NCBI GenBank assembly: GCA_022447225.1
Contig: JAKVAZ010000010.1
Location: 186,001 to 250,000, forward strand
Source: Fuerstiella sp.
Lineage (GTDB): Bacteria; Planctomycetota; Planctomycetia; Planctomycetales; Planctomycetaceae
DNA length: 64,000 nt
Direction: 5' to 3'
The notes under the pieces were generated by a model that made no database searches, was not told where the DNA came from, and saw only the letters and a program-made list of their open reading frames with translations. A program made the translations under genes and the position numbers. This document shows, one piece after another, positions 47,947 to 55,874 of the stretch (positions are counted from its first letter, which is position 1; every line of letters starts with the position of its first letter).

Positions 47947-50900
47947 ATGCACAGGACCGGTTGTTTAAACCACTTAATGGCTCTGACATTTGCGTTATGC
48001 GTGCAGCATCATACGCTGAGTGTTGCCAGTGAATCTCCCACGTTCAGTCGTGACATTCAACCACTGCTTGCAAAGCACTGCATCGTTTGCCACGGTCCCA
48101 ACATGGCAGAGGGGGGCCTGCGGCTGGATGTCGCTGAACAGGCCCGGGCAGAGCTTGAGTCAGGGTCACGTGCCGTGATTCCCGGAAACCTGGAATCGAG
48201 TGAGTTGCTGCGTCGAGTCACAGCAGCCGATGCGTCGGAACGGATGCCGCCTGAGGGTGATCCACTGTCTGACGACGACATTGAAAAGCTCCGTCGGTGG
48301 ATTCAGGATGGAGCCGGTTATGAACAGCACTGGGCCTATCAACCGGTCAAACGGACAGTGCCTCCCCAGGTGACGCATCCCGACTGGATTCGCAATCCCG
48401 TTGACCAGTTCGTGCTGGCCCGACTGGAAGCGAACGGAGTGACGCCGTCACCTGAAGCGAAACCGGCGACTTTGATCAGACGATTGTTTTACGACCTGGT
48501 TGGCCTTCCGCCAACACCGGAGGAAGTTGATGCTTTTGTGACAGATGAATCGTCAGACGCATGGGAGGCATTGGTAGACCGGCTGCTGGAATCCGACCAT
48601 TTTGGTGAACGCTGGGGACGACACTGGCTGGATAAAGCCCGATATGCTGATTCAGACGGTTATGAAAAAGATCGCTCCCGACCCAACGCGTGGCGCTATC
48701 GCGACTGGGTGATCGAAGCCATCAATCGAGACATGCCGTTTGATCAGTTTACCATTGAGCAGCTTGCCGGTGACCTTCTGCCGGACGCGACTGCGATGCA
48801 GAAACTGGCCACTGCGTTTCACCGGCAGACACTGACCAACACTGAAGGCGGAACCGACCAGGAACAGTTTCGTATCGAAGCAACATTCGACCGCACAGAA
48901 ACCACCAGTACAGTCTGGATGGCCCTGACAATGACCTGTGCACGCTGCCATACACACAAGTACGATCAAATCACACAGCGAGAATATTATGAGCTGTTCG
49001 CGTTTTTCAACAATGCCGACGAATCCAGCATTGATGTTGGCCGCAGCCATTCTGACATGGCGAAATATCGTCGAGACAAGGCAGCGCACGACCATGAAAT
49101 GTCAGCATTAACCGCACAGTATGAACATGCAAAAGCATCTCTGAAACCGCAAATCGCGAAATGGACTGACGACATATCCGCCCGAATCAAAATGGAATTG
49201 TCGCAAACACCAACCCGTAACCATCTGAATCTGGTGGATGCAAAAACTTCCGGCAGTACAAAACTGGTGCTGCAGGAAGACGGTTCCCTGCTGGCATCCG
49301 GACAGGTACCGGACAAAGACAGGTATACGCTTGTATTTGAACTTCCGGTGGAACCGGTTACCGGGATTCGGGTAGAAACTCTGGTTCATGATTCGCTCCC
49401 GGGAACAGGACCTGGCAGCGCTTCCGACGGAAATTTTGTGCTGAGTCAGCTGCGGGCGTACATTAGTTCAGAGAAAGACTTCAACAGTCGGACAGAGCTG
49501 CAGTTCGCAACGGCCGATTCTGACTTTTCTCAGGATGGATTTTCAGCAGAGTCTTCAGTTTCCTCCGCAGAGAAGTCCGGGTGGGCAGTCTTTCCGCAAA
49601 TCGGCAGTGCTCACCAGATCACCGCGTACACCGTGCAGCCGGTTCGGACCGACGGTGCGAAGTATCTGCAGGTCGTACTGGATCAGCAATATGGCGATCA
49701 GCACGTGATCGGTCGTCTTCGAGTCAGCACGGTCTCGGAATTCAACCCCGTTCGTGCTTTGCCGAGAGCGGTTGCCGACGCCGTCCGGCAAGAATCAGCA
49801 GCCAGAACAGAGCAGCAGCGGAAGGTCATTGCAGCACATGTTGCACTGATTTCTCCGGTTACCGTGCGGGTTGCTGATGCAATTGCAGAGTTGAAAACCC
49901 AAACGCCAAAGGCTCCTCTGTTGCCGGTCCGTGTGATCGCCCCGGCAGCACGTGTAACAAAAACCCTTCATCGAGGGGACTTCCTTCAGCCCGGAGACGA
50001 TGTGACGGCAAACACGTTGTCGGTTATCAGTGGCAGCCATTCGCTTCAGCCTCGAAAATCTGATGATTCCGCTGATCGACTGGATCTGGCCCGGTGGCTT
50101 GTCAGTCCCAACCATCCGCTGACGGCTCGAGTGACGGTCAATCAGATCTGGTCGCATCTGTTCGGTCGCGGCATTGTACCGTCGCAAAATGACTTTGGAG
50201 TTCGTGGTGAGCTGCCAACGCATCCCCAACTGCTTGACTGGCTGGCATGGCATTTTTCACGCGATATGAACTGGAGTCGCAAGACGCTGATCAGAACGAT
50301 ATTGATGAGTTCCACATGGCGGCAATCCTCTCATTATCGAGAGGAACTCCGCAACATCGATCCTGCAAACCGGTTGCTTGCACAGCAAAACCGGTTTCGA
50401 GTGGAAGCCGAAGTTGTTCGTGATCTGCATCTTGCGGTGAGTGGTCTGCTGAGTCCTCAAATTGGTGGTCCCAGCGTCTTTCCGCCACTGCCGTCCGGAG
50501 TGGCAGAGCTGAGTTACGCCAACAGGTTCAAATGGAAAACCAGTGAAGGTAACGACGGCCATCGCCGCGGGATGTATACATTTTTCAAACGAACGGCCCC
50601 GCATCCGACTTTAATCAGTTTCGACTGTCCGGATTCAAACACAAGCCGCCTGCAGCGTGAATCCAGCAATACGCCCCTGCAGGCCCTGATCACTCTGAAC
50701 AATGAAGTTTACGCCGAGGCCGCTCAGGCGCTTGTTCGACGAATTTTCGAGGAGGCGGGTGACGGCGACCGAAAGCAGCTGATGCGGGCCATGAGATTAT
50801 GCATCGCACGTATACCGGAAGATCCCGAACTGGATCGATTTGCAGAATTTCTGTCGACGTCTCGTGAGTATTATCGCGTTCACCTGGATGATGCGAAGTT

Positions 50901-51009
50901 GTTGACAGAAAAGCATCCGGTTAAACAGCTTGAACCTGAAGAAAATGCGGCCTGGGTAGCCACTGTAAGAATGATTTTGAACCTGGACGAATTCATTGTC
51001 AGAGACTGA
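47947..51009 (+). CDS. PSCyt1-DUF1549-DUF1553 'Planctomycete cytochrome' protein
   Basis: This 1020-residue secreted protein has, after a short signal peptide, a PSCyt1 cytochrome c-like domain with CIVCH heme motif (TFSRDIQPLLAKHCIVCHGP) and the Met-containing RMPPEGDPLS box. DUF1549 follows (NPVDQFVLARLEANGV, HFGERWGRHWLDKARYADSD) with a second CxxCH, CARCHTHKYDQIT, and DUF1553 is at the C-terminus (NHPLTARVTVNQIWSHLFGR, SSNTPLQALITLNNEVYAEA). It is probably a periplasmic oxidoreductase-like protein paired with the DUF1501 protein encoded 81 bases downstream. Confidence 0.94.
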   Translation: MHRTGCLNHLMALTFALCVQHHTLSVASESPTFSRDIQPLLAKHCIVCHGPNMAEGGLRLDVAEQARAELESGSRAVIPGNLESSELLRRVTAADASERMPPEGDPLSDDDIEKLRRWIQDGAGYEQHWAYQPVKRTVPPQVTHPDWIRNPVDQFVLARLEANGVTPSPEAKPATLIRRLFYDLVGLPPTPEEVDAFVTDESSDAWEALVDRLLESDHFGERWGRHWLDKARYADSDGYEKDRSRPNAWRYRDWVIEAINRDMPFDQFTIEQLAGDLLPDATAMQKLATAFHRQTLTNTEGGTDQEQFRIEATFDRTETTSTVWMALTMTCARCHTHKYDQITQREYYELFAFFNNADESSIDVGRSHSDMAKYRRDKAAHDHEMSALTAQYEHAKASLKPQIAKWTDDISARIKMELSQTPTRNHLNLVDAKTSGSTKLVLQEDGSLLASGQVPDKDRYTLVFELPVEPVTGIRVETLVHDSLPGTGPGSASDGNFVLSQLRAYISSEKDFNSRTELQFATADSDFSQDGFSAESSVSSAEKSGWAVFPQIGSAHQITAYTVQPVRTDGAKYLQVVLDQQYGDQHVIGRLRVSTVSEFNPVRALPRAVADAVRQESAARTEQQRKVIAAHVALISPVTVRVADAIAELKTQTPKAPLLPVRVIAPAARVTKTLHRGDFLQPGDDVTANTLSVISGSHSLQPRKSDDSADRLDLARWLVSPNHPLTARVTVNQIWSHLFGRGIVPSQNDFGVRGELPTHPQLLDWLAWHFSRDMNWSRKTLIRTILMSSTWRQSSHYREELRNIDPANRLLAQQNRFRVEAEVVRDLHLAVSGLLSPQIGGPSVFPPLPSGVAELSYANRFKWKTSEGNDGHRRGMYTFFKRTAPHPTLISFDCPDSNTSRLQRESSNTPLQALITLNNEVYAEAAQALVRRIFEEAGDGDRKQLMRAMRLCIARIPEDPELDRFAEFLSTSREYYRVHLDDAKLLTEKHPVKQLEPEENAAWVATVRMILNLDEFIVRD

Positions 51010-51090
51010 TCTGGCAGACGTTGTTCGTTGCCCGGCCTGCAGCCTTCGATTTTTCTGCAGCATGTTTCATACGTAACCGACAAAATAATT

Positions 51091-52593
51091 ATGAAGATGC
51101 AACAACAATCCGATCTTGCGAAATACGCGGACAGAACCCGTCGCGAATTTCTTAATACGACGGCAAGCGGTCTGGGGATGGCTGCACTGGGATCCATGCT
51201 GTCGCAGGATGGTCTGATGCCGGCTGCCACTGCGGCGGAGGATGGGAATCCTCTGGCTCCGGCGGAGCCTCATTTCGATGCGAAAGCCAAAGCCTGCATT
51301 TTTATCTTCATGGCCGGCGCACCGTCACAAATCGATTTGTTCGACGACAAACCCGTGTTGCGAAAGCGGCACGCGCAACCGTTGCCGGATTCATTTCTTG
51401 AGAAAGTTCGTTTTGCGTTCATCAAAAAAAAGACCGCACTGTTACAGGGATCCCCTTATCGATTTCATCGGCATGGTGAATGTGGAATGTCACTGAGCGA
51501 ACTGCTTCCGCATGTTGGATCCGTCGCGGATGACCTGCTGCTGATTCGTTCGCTGCATACAGATGAATTCAATCACCATCCAGGCCAGCTGATGATGCAG
51601 TGTGGCCGAGGTACATTCGGACTGCCGTCGATGGGTTCCTGGCTGACTTACGGTCTCGGCAGCGAATCGCAGAACCTGCCAGGATATGTCGTGCTGAACA
51701 GCGGCAGAGGATCTTCCGGCGGTGCCACGCTTTGGCAGTCAGGATTCCTGCCCTCTTCATATGCGGGAGTGCTGTTTCGCAATCAGGGAGAGCCGATTCT
51801 CAACCTGTCCAGCCCTGCCGGTATTCCGTCTCAGCTGCAAAGAAAGGGCATCGATGCACTGCGGGCTGTCAATGAACGACGCTTTGCTGAGGTTCGGGAT
51901 CCGGAGATTGCAGCGAGAATCGCTTCCTATGAACTGGCGTATCGTATGCAGACAGCGGCACCGGAGCTGATCGACCTTGCGGGTGAATCCAAAGCCACGA
52001 TTGATGCCTACGGTGTGGATCGTCCTGAACAGAAAATAGTGAAAGCTCGTGGTAAACAGGGGAATACTTATCAGAGCTTTGCTCGAAACTGTCTGCTGGC
52101 ACGCCGCATGGTCGAACGCGGCGTCCGTTTTATCAACATTATCTACGCTTCATGGGACCATCATACCAACATTCCCAAAGAGCTTCCGTACAACGCGGGC
52201 TGCGTTGACCAGCCCATTGCAGCACTGATCAGTGACCTCAAGCAGCGAGGTATGCTGGATTCCACAATGGTCGTGTGGGGATCCGAATTTGGTCGCACGC
52301 CGTTAGGCGAAAACCGTAAGGGTAAGCGGGATGTTGGTACAGGGAGGGATCATCATCCGTATTCGTTCAGCATGCTGATGGCGGGTGGTGGAATTCAGGG
52401 AGGTCAGGTTTACGGAGCGTCGGATGATATCGGCTGGCACGCCACCGAAAACAGAGTCCATGTCAACGATCTACACGCTACAATGCTGCACCAGTTTGGA
52501 CTGGATCATTTAAAGCTCACTCATCGCTTCCAGGGTCGCGATTTTCGGCTGACCGATGTCGGCGGAGACGTCGTTCAGGACTGGCTCGTGTAA
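51091..52593 (+). CDS. DUF1501 protein, partner of upstream PSD gene
   Basis: This DUF1501 protein has about 500 residues from the ATG at 51091 (51097 also possible). The Tat signal is strong: RTRREFLNTTASGLGMAALG. Boxes are FMAGAPSQIDLFDDKPVL, IRSLHTDEFNHHPGQLMMQ, VVWGSEFGRTPLGEN and TGRDHHPYSFSMLMAGGGIQ. It is the fourth copy in the window and very similar in layout to the one at 38624. The PSD-DUF1501 gene order is reversed here compared with that pair. Confidence 0.93.
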   Translation: MKMQQQSDLAKYADRTRREFLNTTASGLGMAALGSMLSQDGLMPAATAAEDGNPLAPAEPHFDAKAKACIFIFMAGAPSQIDLFDDKPVLRKRHAQPLPDSFLEKVRFAFIKKKTALLQGSPYRFHRHGECGMSLSELLPHVGSVADDLLLIRSLHTDEFNHHPGQLMMQCGRGTFGLPSMGSWLTYGLGSESQNLPGYVVLNSGRGSSGGATLWQSGFLPSSYAGVLFRNQGEPILNLSSPAGIPSQLQRKGIDALRAVNERRFAEVRDPEIAARIASYELAYRMQTAAPELIDLAGESKATIDAYGVDRPEQKIVKARGKQGNTYQSFARNCLLARRMVERGVRFINIIYASWDHHTNIPKELPYNAGCVDQPIAALISDLKQRGMLDSTMVVWGSEFGRTPLGENRKGKRDVGTGRDHHPYSFSMLMAGGGIQGGQVYGASDDIGWHATENRVHVNDLHATMLHQFGLDHLKLTHRFQGRDFRLTDVGGDVVQDWLV

Positions 52594-52690: not shown

Positions 52691-54064
52691 TCATCGTGTG
52701 CTGCGAGTCATCATGCGGACAATTGTCGGTTCGGTGTCTGTTGGCTCTGATTCATAGCGGACCATCTCGCCCTTTCGAATTGCCTTCAACGGACTGCGGC
52801 GACCATTCCGCACAATTGATGTGTTGTTGGTCACACGATACTTCTGCGAATTACCAGCGGGCATTCGGAGGGTGATTGTTTCCGCCCTGACGTCAATACG
52901 GGTTACTCTGCCTATCGACATCAATGAACCACGTGTTCCCGATCGTCTGCGGAGACCACTTCGGTTTTTCTGAATTCGTCCCGCATCCGGGTCAGTTTCC
53001 AGACTGATGGTGTACGACTGTCGAATGGCTTTGCACCACGTCTGGTCGTCATCACAGGCGTAATAAAACACATCCAGTTGTATTTCCGTACCGCGTTGTG
53101 CATTTTCGACGGTGATCAGGAATTCACGAGGATCACTGTCTGATTCCACATGGACCTTCGGACCCTTAAGAATCGAAGGTTCCACGTGCGAGTTTTTGGT
53201 TGCGGTGACCGCTACACGCAGAGGTTTCGACAAATTGTTCCAGTGTACGTGATACAGTGGATCGATCAGAAACCCAAGATACATTTGACCGCTGCCGGAA
53301 CGCAGCAGATCGAAATCGGCTTCCGCCCGAAGCTTGGCATAAAAAGGATCCTTTGAAGAATCAACTTCTGCTTTTACAGTTACGGCCTGCATACGGCCGG
53401 GCCGCCGGATTCTCGGTACGACCCCCTGACTGACGTTGCGACCGGTGATGATTTGCGGCAAATTGAGTTCAGATTCCCTGGTTGGTTTTCTGACCGGGCC
53501 AACCAGTTCTGTCAGATCTTTCCGCAGTTGGTCAGGATCGCTCCAGGATCTGCTGCGAACAATGCGTCCTTCGGGGGCGATAACAAACTCTGAATTGGGT
53601 GCGTCGCCAAATTGGTGCTTGGCCACGTTGTCCATGGTGTCGCACAACCAGGTGAAGCCTGACCCCAGGCGATTTTGAGCCTCTTTGACATGCATCAGGC
53701 GCTCTTCTGTCGTGAACGGCCGGACGTAATCGTTAGTCTCCGGGTGGGCGAGTGCTTTATAGATAAAGTAGAAGCGAACTCCTTTTGGGGCAAAATCACG
53801 ATAAACGGTCTCCAGACCGGAAACCTTGCGAAGGAACGGAGGTCAGGTCAGGCAACCAAATACCAGTACGGTGTAGTTGTCTTTTAAACCGCGCAGGTAA
53901 AAGTCATTTCCGTCAGCGTCAAGGATCGTGATGTTTGGTAACGGCTCACCGACCTTGGGTATTTTTCGGTCGAATCGTGCGCCGCCTGTCTGGCACAGTG
54001 CAGTTGAACTGAGGACGAACAGGGCCACAGGTACACATACAGAACTCCTGATTCGTTGTCTCAT
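52691..54064 (-). CDS. Deiodinase-like selenoprotein with DsbD-alpha-like domain (in-frame TGA = Sec74)
   Basis: This is one frame of 457 codons with a single internal TGA at 53843-53845, which I read as selenocysteine. GGTGGAG lies 7 bases before the ATG at 54064. Residues 1-24 are a signal peptide; 35-185 form a thioredoxin fold of the iodothyronine deiodinase type: VFGCLT-U-PPF with CxxU at Cys71-Sec74, YFIYKALAHP (the His of deiodinases) and CDTMDN. Residues ~215-365 resemble the DsbD alpha domain, with Cys337 and Cys344 in FYYACDDDQTWCKAI. Residues ~380-455 form a DUF5666-like beta domain. The conventional alternative, two separate ORFs (53843-54064 and 52691-53695), would leave neither with a complete fold. 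A frame-preserving C-to-U mutation (TGC/TGT to TGA) in a dying gene is the main rival explanation. Confidence 0.82.
53806..53842 (-). promoter_or_regulatory. Candidate bacterial SECIS element
   Basis: Directly 3' of the TGA in the mRNA, two small hairpins can form: CCTT-CGC-AAGG (nt 9-19 after the TGA) and CGGTC-TGGA-GACCG (nt 24-37; 6 pairs if the T-A is also closed). The second has a G in the first two loop bases, and its loop lies about 29-32 nt after the stop codon, within the range expected for bacterial SECIS hairpins. It lies within the coding sequence, as bacterial elements do. Not folded computationally. Confidence 0.5.
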
Positions 54065-54906
54065 GTCCGGACTCCACCGTTCAGGTTATGGGAAACACCG
54101 CCGTTCTGCCGGTTGTTGGCCCATACCTCCCCGACAATGACACGCTGATGTCAGTCTGAACACTTAAGCCGGCCAAAGGTGTCGCCCGGAATTTCCGATT
54201 GATGTAGGTACGGAAAGAGAATGTTTTGTAAGTCCGACTGTGATCTTCTGGTCCGAACCGGATCGTGTCATCTGCAGAATTTGCGCATCGGTTAGTTGTC
54301 TCCACGAGAAACGGCCATGCATCATGCGAACAGAATCCGGGTTCCGTTTATGAATTCAAAAGTCTGTCCGGGTTCAGTTTTCACGTTCTGTACAATGTTG
54401 TCAGTGCCAAACCGGGATTTGTGAACCGACAGTGATGTTTTTCAGAAAATGAACAGGTTGACTTCCGTGTTGAAGTTGAACGTATAACCCGAAGCCACCC
54501 GGGGATTATGACTTTTGTGTGAGAAAATCACTTTGACACTCGATGCCGCCATACGGGCAGTGTTTCAGCAACACAGAAAGAGAGTTGTTCAGCGAACCTG
54601 ATGAACTTGGCGGGAATCTTTTCATCACCTTTGGAGCAAACCGTGGTCCCTCTGCGGTTACCATTTTGAATGGTGATGTTTCGATCAAATCTGATTTACG
54701 TTCTGCCGCATGACTGAGACAGGCCAACATGTGTCGATCCATGCCGGTCAGAAGTCTGTCGGGCGCGTCCAGTGCGTCTGTTAGCACCGGTTGTCATACA
54801 ACGAGATGCGAGGGTGATACTCTGTCTGCAGGAGGTTGACCATCGCCTGCGCTGCGGCGGACGTCATCTGCGGCGGCACTGTCAACTGCAATACGGTTCG
54901 ACAGAA
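54065..54906. other. Intergenic region upstream of the selenoprotein gene
   Basis: This long stretch has no supported gene. A minus-strand frame at 54506-54787 has some protein character but no family resemblance. The promoter of the selenoprotein gene should lie near 54070-54200. No RNA gene was recognised here, in particular nothing resembling tRNA-Sec. Confidence 0.5.
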
Positions 54907-55236
54907 CTAAGAACGTCGTCTGTTTTTTGTGGACGCTTTCTTCGTTTTTCGGTTTGTTGCCGATTTGCGAACCGTGGTTGACTTACCAGACACTGAAGTT
55001 TTTGTAGCTGTTTTCTTTTTGGCAACCTGTTTCTTCGTTCCCGAATGTTTCTTAACGGAAGACCCGGCAGCAGCCTGCTTCTTTTTGGTGGATTTTTTCT
55101 TTGCCGCCTTCTTCTTTCGCGAAGTCGTCCTGGAGGATGTTTTCTTTCCTGTCGTGGGCTTTCCGTCAGAGAAAATTTTATCCCAGCCGGTAACGAATTT
55201 TTTTGAGGCCCCGGTATGAACGGTGTACCCAGTCAT
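54907..55236 (-). CDS. Small lysine-rich, histone H1-like basic protein
   Basis: This is a 109-residue protein from the ATG at 55236 (AAGGA upstream). A short conserved-looking head (MTGYTVHTGASKKFVTGWDK) is followed by about 75 residues made almost only of Lys, Thr, Ser, Ala and Arg (KKKAAKKKSTKKKQAAAGSS), like histone H1 tails or bacterial HC-type nucleoid proteins. It is known in planctomycetes as a small basic protein of uncertain function. DNA or RNA binding is an inference from charge. The longer frame from 55281 adds an unlikely N-terminus. Confidence 0.8.
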   Translation of the reverse strand: MTGYTVHTGASKKFVTGWDKIFSDGKPTTGKKTSSRTTSRKKKAAKKKSTKKKQAAAGSSVKKHSGTKKQVAKKKTATKTSVSGKSTTVRKSATNRKTKKASTKNRRRS

Positions 55237-55874
55237 TCTTTGTGATTCCTTTGTTCGTGAGAAGACGCGGACGGTATCCACTCAAATGGCCGATTCAAGT
55301 GCATACCACTACCGCGGAGAAATTTTTTTAATTCCGGAACGTTTAAGTGTCCTGGAGAAGCAGAAATCGGCTCATCAGGTGGATCCGACGGTAAGTGTCG
55401 TGCCTCCGTCTGCAATTGGAACGAGTTCCACAAAACCCGCCGGGAGTAGTGTGGTCAGTCTCCGGACACCGAATGCTTTCATGGCCAAATCCGGCAGTTT
55501 AAACTGGTTCAGGATGCACACTGAAGGTCCTGGCGGGATTCATCGATCATCTGCAACACAACGTCTGAGATGTTGTGTCTGGAGCCAACTGCCGACTCCG
55601 GGAAAATTTCTCAAAACACTGCGGAACCGGAACTTTTGGGTACGTTTAAAAAAGGAGACCAGGGAAACGGAAGGAAAGTCAGTGCTGACTCCGACAGACT
55701 TGTGTTTCGGTGTTTTGCCTTTTAAACTCCGCAGCCTGTTGACGGTCGAACAGTGGCAACTGTGCGACATTATTCGCCGTGTTGTCAACTGTGAATTCAG
55801 ACGAGACGGACCGGTGTCGTTGTACCAAATCTGTCCTCATGCGGACGTCAGCAAACCTGTGCTGTTAAGCACCT
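55237..55874. other. Intergenic region before tRNA-Asp
   Basis: A plus-strand frame (55223-55897) crosses the whole stretch but runs into the tRNA and has no recognisable domain, so I do not accept it. The tRNA promoter is presumably near 55800-55870. No repeats were seen. Confidence 0.5.

Follow-up and report, generated by a model that had tools for sequence, protein, structure and literature searches.

We found that the 64,000-nucleotide stretch of Fuerstiella sp. DNA analyzed here (the window) carries a minus-strand gene in which an in-frame TGA, codon 74, is almost certainly decoded as Sec, judging from comparison of its homologs. The product is probably an exported CxxU oxidoreductase that receives electrons via a fused DsbD-alpha-like domain. 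The positions of its parts are collected in Table 1.

TABLE 1 Features of the selenoprotein gene and its product, in window coordinates
Feature	Position	Strand	Basis or remark
Shine-Dalgarno-like GGTGGAG	54072..54078	(-)	Direct reading; 7 nt ahead of ATG
Whole selenoprotein gene	52691..54064	(-)	457 aa with Sec74; closed by ordinary TGA stop
Putative N-terminal export signal, hydrophobic, residues 1-25	53990..54064	(-)	Predicted from sequence
Thioredoxin/deiodinase-like domain, residues 33-193	53486..53968	(-)	AlphaFold model, Pfam
CxxU redox motif C71-L-T-U74	53843..53854	(-)	Sec codon TGA 53843-53845
bSECIS region, UGA + 48 nt	53795..53845	(-)	Covariation, RNAalifold, model R1
bSECIS hairpin GGUUUCCG-GUC-UGGAGACC	53807-53825	(-)	Covariation; same hairpin in RNAalifold
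His107, counterpart of deiodinase His202	53744..53746	(-)	Alignment with 4tr3
DsbD-alpha-like beta-sandwich domain, residues 224-358	52991..53395	(-)	PF11412 in relatives, Foldseek
Second invariant Cys pair C337-x6-C344	53033..53056	(-)	C-x(4-6)-C in homologs read
Small C-terminal beta domain, residues 380-441	52742..52927	(-)	Model, alignment, Pfam

The reading frame runs from the ATG at 54064 to a TGA stop at 52691 with a single internal TGA, codon 74 (53845-53843), followed by 49 codons before the next ATG at 53695; these coordinates are exactly those given by an earlier reading of the same DNA from its sequence alone (the sequence-only reading). A plain open reading frame finder breaks the gene at this TGA and gives a 334-amino-acid frame begun at ATG 53695. 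The nearest homolog (L010) also has a TGA stop, near the same place as the end of the window gene. In the homolog alignment, invariant columns are numerous on either side of codon 74, and the differences from homologs at the first, second, and third codon positions are 0.348, 0.298, and 0.660 upstream of the TGA and 0.250, 0.166, and 0.627 downstream of it. Differences that fall mostly at third positions on both sides indicate coding constraint, in agreement with the earlier claim that the gene is coding to either side of the TGA. Export, which had also been suggested, is likely, since residues 1 to 25 are hydrophobic and the homologs have similar N-termini, many with A-x-A preceding a Gln.

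Among 59 relatives, full-length homologs (E < 1e-99) carry the TGA in 10 genomes; in two others the frame is uninterrupted, with TGC or TGT at this codon (TGC in L019). All 10 genomes with the TGA form are among the 29 of the 59 with selA above the cut-off, a co-occurrence with P = 3e-4 under random placement with kinship ignored. From 84,980 species genomes scanned, 80 loci were kept, and the codon at the Sec site is TGA in 76 of them (75 found by motif, plus L096), TGT in three, and a frameshifted TGC in one. The 80 loci include some contigs from the 59-relative set, so the two counts are not additive, and one of the two scan patterns, FGCLTCPP, could favor Cys forms only. The hosts, under labels that may be wrong for some bins, are Planctomycetota, Verrucomicrobiota, Kiritimatiellia, and one Acidobacteria bin. 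The sequence-only reading had proposed an inspection of the TGA column and had expected Cys versions in planctomycetes; the TGC and TGT homologs are such versions. In the tree, the Cys forms make up one clade (support, 100/96) nested inside the Sec forms, a pattern that would reflect a single Sec-to-Cys change with signal decay if the root lies outside the Cys clade. On a Verrucomicrobiales contig (L134:461-512, plus strand), TGC and one extra base replace the TGA with the hairpin intact, which is probably a frameshift or sequencing error.

As in other bacterial SECIS elements (bSECIS), the UGA is followed by a hairpin with a G in its small apical loop. In the Sec forms, this hairpin starts 17 nt after the UGA and has a stem of at most 8 pairs and a 3-nt loop, GUN, in which the GU is invariant; 7 or 8 of the pairs are kept in 72 of 73 distinct Sec-form sequences, and only 3 to 5 of the 8 are left in the Cys forms. 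Across 49 sequences, 91.1% of cells are paired, compared to 84.8% after shuffling, and both partners vary in four of the pairs. The covariation score, 0.330 compared to 0.195 for shuffled data (0 of 500 shuffles), beats every slid version. Pair 21-39 is seen as C-G, U-A, and G-C, both arms are altered in L086 with the hairpin retained, and most members have a C-A mismatch at one inner pair. RNAalifold recovers the same hairpin unprompted. Model R1 scores 65.5 bits at the window bSECIS, with 11.6 bits for the next best site in the window and 11.8 to 27 bits for the Cys forms; a search for further copies in the source genome gave next-best scores of 18.8 bits or lower, with five next-best sites that look chance-like.

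The source genome of the window (5.43 Mb in 33 contigs, 97% complete) contains a tRNA-Sec (70.8 bits, cut-off of 47; anticodon tca in ARAGORN) and selB, selA, and selD, each above its curated cut-off; these are all the genes that the earlier reading had named for a search. The selB, selA, and selD genes lie side by side on contig C1 (L138:2671-8300, plus strand), where a 752-amino-acid protein has SelD as its C-terminal half and an N-terminal half that looks NADH-dehydrogenase-like in our reading. We also found a second Sec gene on contig C21 (L151:1846-3198, minus strand), which was first picked up as a weak FdhA match containing a TGA and which encodes formylmethanofuran dehydrogenase subunit B (FmdB), with 498 bits on TIGR03129 when read through the TGA (cut-off, 327.8). 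FdhA itself, sought as a further Sec protein, has no match above the cut-off in this genome, the weakest match being FmdB. The TGA of the FmdB gene reads SLUHGP, the UHxP site given for the FmdB selenoprotein (PMC13188914), and a planctomycete FmdB selenoprotein has been reported (PMC4807772). Its hairpin, GCCGCCCAGTTGGGTGGC, begins 18 nt past the TGA, with the same layout as that of the window gene and a similar loop. Since the FmdB gene carries a TGA at UHGP and a like hairpin, the Sec trait is used in this genome independently of the window gene. The neighbors of the FmdB gene are fmdA-like and formyltransferase-like genes.

On this comparative evidence (TGA loci, bSECIS, and Sec machinery), the proposal of a true Sec protein is very strongly supported, and none of the findings listed beforehand as speaking against it (a genome without Sec-insertion genes, TGC or TGT in the reads at 53843-53845, or homologs with ordinary stops and decayed downstream frames) was encountered. 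The alternative that the TGA is a real stop, produced by a pseudogene, an assembly error, or regulated truncation, would explain why a plain open reading frame finder splits the gene, but it has virtually no chance of being correct given TGA at 76 of 80 loci, coding constraint on either side, the conserved bSECIS, and the Sec machinery of the genome. A pseudogene or sequencing error is ruled out by the 76 conserved TGA loci. A general change of the genetic code was also rejected: of the 32 long open frames in the window, 14 end in TGA, so that UGA is not generally reassigned.

The Sec domain was compared to known structures with an AlphaFold model (mean pLDDT, 78). The best match is mouse Dio2 (Z 18.1, rmsd 3.0, 156 aligned residues), followed by Dio3 (Z 17.0, rmsd 3.0, 157 aligned), SdbA and DsbE- and ResA-like proteins (Z 16.3 to 16.5), and AhpE/Prx structures (Z 15 to 16). 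The lead in Z over the ResA/DsbE-like proteins is ~1.6 for Dio2 and 0.5, equivalent to a tie, for Dio3. By sequence, the window protein is closest to Dio3 among PDB entries (E = 5.7e-5), and in Pfam the top match is AhpC-TSA (31.4 bits), with a marginal match to T4_deiodinase (PF00837; 29.3 bits, cut-off of 27). The invariant positions of the first alignment are C71, L72, T73, Sec/Cys74, P75, P76, H107, and P108; L72 is replaced by Met in a few further homologs, and the motif is C(L/M)TU in 75 loci and C(L/M)TC in 3. The LAHP motif that contains His107 is kept in 78 of 78 homologs. The CxxU center suggested from the sequence is thus borne out, with invariant Cys71 and Thr73 next to Sec74.

The Sec site of Dio3 is organized by Glu200, Ser167, Thr169, Tyr197, and His202 (PMC7506546; see also PMC11592359); replacement of Glu200 by Ala inactivates Dio1-3, and Dio activity is lost or greatly reduced when Ser167, Glu200, or Thr169 is mutated (PMC7506546). 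In a sequence alignment, the counterparts of these five residues in the window protein are Leu105, Cys71, Thr73, Tyr102, and His107, respectively, so that the SCTU motif of deiodinases is replaced by CLTU, with the Thr kept and the Ser changed to Cys. Leu occupies the Glu200 position in 78 of 78 homologs checked, and thus the window protein is deiodinase-like in fold with a defining catalytic feature missing. A gapped sequence alignment gave no counterpart of the omega-loop residue Trp207 or of His219 in the stretch HPETNDYVRPFTTEERL. The earlier description of the protein as deiodinase-like therefore stands for the thioredoxin/deiodinase fold, which the proposed structure comparison recovered, and for the Thr, Sec, and His residues; it fails at Glu200 and Ser167, and the marginal PF00837 score and the lack of a visible Trp207 or His219 counterpart count against a deiodinase reading. 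Shorter Sec paralogs in relatives (L027:1366-2052 and L032:1384-2055, both plus strand) have YIREAHP with the Glu kept and score 107 to 111 bits on T4_deiodinase (for L032, E = 3e-23 to Dio3); on sequence grounds, this short protein is more likely than the window protein to be a deiodinase-type enzyme.

The sequence-only reading had described neither the bSECIS nor the C-terminal beta domain, nor the DsbD-alpha-like domain and its invariant Cys pair. When modeled alone, residues 224 to 358 are all-beta (pLDDT, 90.5). Of 32 members, 17 have a PF11412 (DsbD_N) match (best E = 4.7e-6); the window protein itself is at 18.0 bits, below the Pfam cut-off of 25. The top Foldseek matches are E. coli DsbD-alpha chains (E = 5.6e-3). 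In VIA-align, DsbD-alpha (Z 7.4) is tied with unrelated adaptin-ear beta-sandwiches, and PDB sequence searches with this domain gave no match. A WNN block is also invariant in the domain. These data weakly suggest a domain that is DsbD-alpha-like rather than DsbD-alpha proper. The C-terminal beta domain is absent or replaced by EF-hands in other members; L016, L017, L018, L019, and L020 have the EF-hands, some with N-terminal EF-hands too, and in such members calcium may regulate or position the enzyme.

We propose that SelB and Sec-tRNA decode UGA74 as Sec because of the bSECIS hairpin downstream. After export, the Sec selenolate, held in a deiodinase/TlpA-like thioredoxin fold and assisted by Thr73 and His107, would attack a substrate that is most likely an oxidized molecule such as a disulfide or a peroxide, and not iodothyronine. 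The oxidized Sec would be resolved by Cys71, giving a C71-U74 selenenylsulfide; re-reduction would come from the Cys337/Cys344 dithiol in the fused domain, a dithiol that the membrane DsbD of the genome would in turn recharge. In DsbD, it is the alpha domain that hands electrons on to Trx-fold partners in the periplasm. A single DsbD_TM protein was found in the source genome (contig C3; L137:694-3270, minus strand); it has two tandem DsbD_N domains, a TM domain, and a Trx domain. We give the internal relay through the DsbD-alpha-like domain a slightly better than even chance, and a thiol- or peroxide-type redox role, instead of dehalogenation, appears quite likely.

Among ~80 loci with flanks, we found no recurrent neighbor that would name a substrate, and the commonest neighboring families are generic. 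In the window, positions 54907-55281 (minus strand) encode a small protein, very rich in Lys and Thr, whose tail resembles histone H1, and 47947-52593 (plus strand) hold two planctomycete genes resembling a DUF1549/DUF1553 cytochrome and DUF1501 pair, which are convergent with the selenoprotein gene in an arrangement that is not conserved in relatives.

Two other enzymatic roles were weighed against this one. The first, a genuine deiodinase or reductive dehalogenase of bacteria, in which Sec attacks the halogen of an aromatic compound as in Dio1-3, would account for Dio2 and Dio3 as top structural matches by Z, for Dio3 as top PDB sequence match, and for the retained counterparts of Thr169, Sec170, and His202. 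We regard it as quite improbable, since the residues required for Dio activity include Ser167 and Glu200 (PMC7506546), which are Cys here and Leu in every homolog checked, counterparts of Trp207 and His219 were not seen in the alignment, and the lead in Z over ResA/DsbE-like proteins is as given above. We consider it very improbable that the chain with CxxU and a DsbD-alpha-like donor acts, in Planctomycetota and Verrucomicrobiota, as a self-recharging periplasmic selenoenzyme for the reductive dehalogenation of aromatic halides; if real, such an enzyme would be a bacterial counterpart of the deiodinases with a different proton-supply system. A peroxiredoxin-like peroxidase with a peroxidatic Sec and Cys71 as resolving residue, which would fit the AhpC-TSA match and the Z values of the AhpE/Prx structures, is unlikely, as the signature P-x3-T/S-x2-C is missing, with Cys71 at position -3 from Sec and Leu67 at position -7.

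No NCBIfam model covers this Planctomycetota/Verrucomicrobiota selenoprotein subfamily, and since it goes unnamed in those models, its genes have probably been split into two in public genomes. With 76 Sec loci from one scan the subfamily is widespread, and it would provide a clean example of a Sec-to-Cys change with SECIS decay. Our literature search found deiodinase, DsbD, and selenoprotein together only in a review (PMC13188914). The NCBIfam family NF038285 (deiodinase family protein) has a related domain, but its planctomycete members have EF-hands and a Cys (FGNFTCGPF), and the window protein scores 49.2 bits on this model (54.6 to 81.8 for other members), compared to a cut-off of 250. 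TlpA, ResA, and DsbE share an exported Trx fold with a redox pair two residues apart (Z ~16.4), but this pair is CxxC in those proteins and CxxU in the window protein, which has Sec second, PPF next, and a fused second domain with a Cys pair. The alpha domain of E. coli DsbD (1l6p, 1vrs) is likewise a beta-sandwich with a redox pair, of the C-x5-C type, that reduces Trx-fold partners, whereas the domain described here has low similarity to it, has C-x(4-6)-C, and shares a chain with its putative partner rather than with a membrane domain.

Dio2 and Dio3 (9h48, 4tr3) have in common with the window protein the fold, xxTUPPF, AHP, and DTMxN; they differ from it at Ser167 and Glu200, in the omega-loop Trp207 and His219, for which no counterpart was seen, and in the extra domains of the window protein. 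In 2005, bacterial selenoproteins resembling deiodinases were reported from the Sargasso Sea, and a redox role was put forward for them (PMC1088965); a 2026 listing gives them as predicted, with unclear function (PMC13188914). These proteins (PMC1088965; PF00837) share with the window protein the Sec, the deiodinase-like Trx fold, a bSECIS, and Cys forms. The window protein is longer, has the DsbD-alpha-like domain added, and has CLTU-PPF in place of the UxxC listed for the known family (PMC13188914); the 2005 sequences were compared by description, and the two sets may overlap. Since a deiodinase-like fold and a DsbD-alpha-like Cys-pair domain are present in one chain, the question of function, open since 2005, becomes directly testable.
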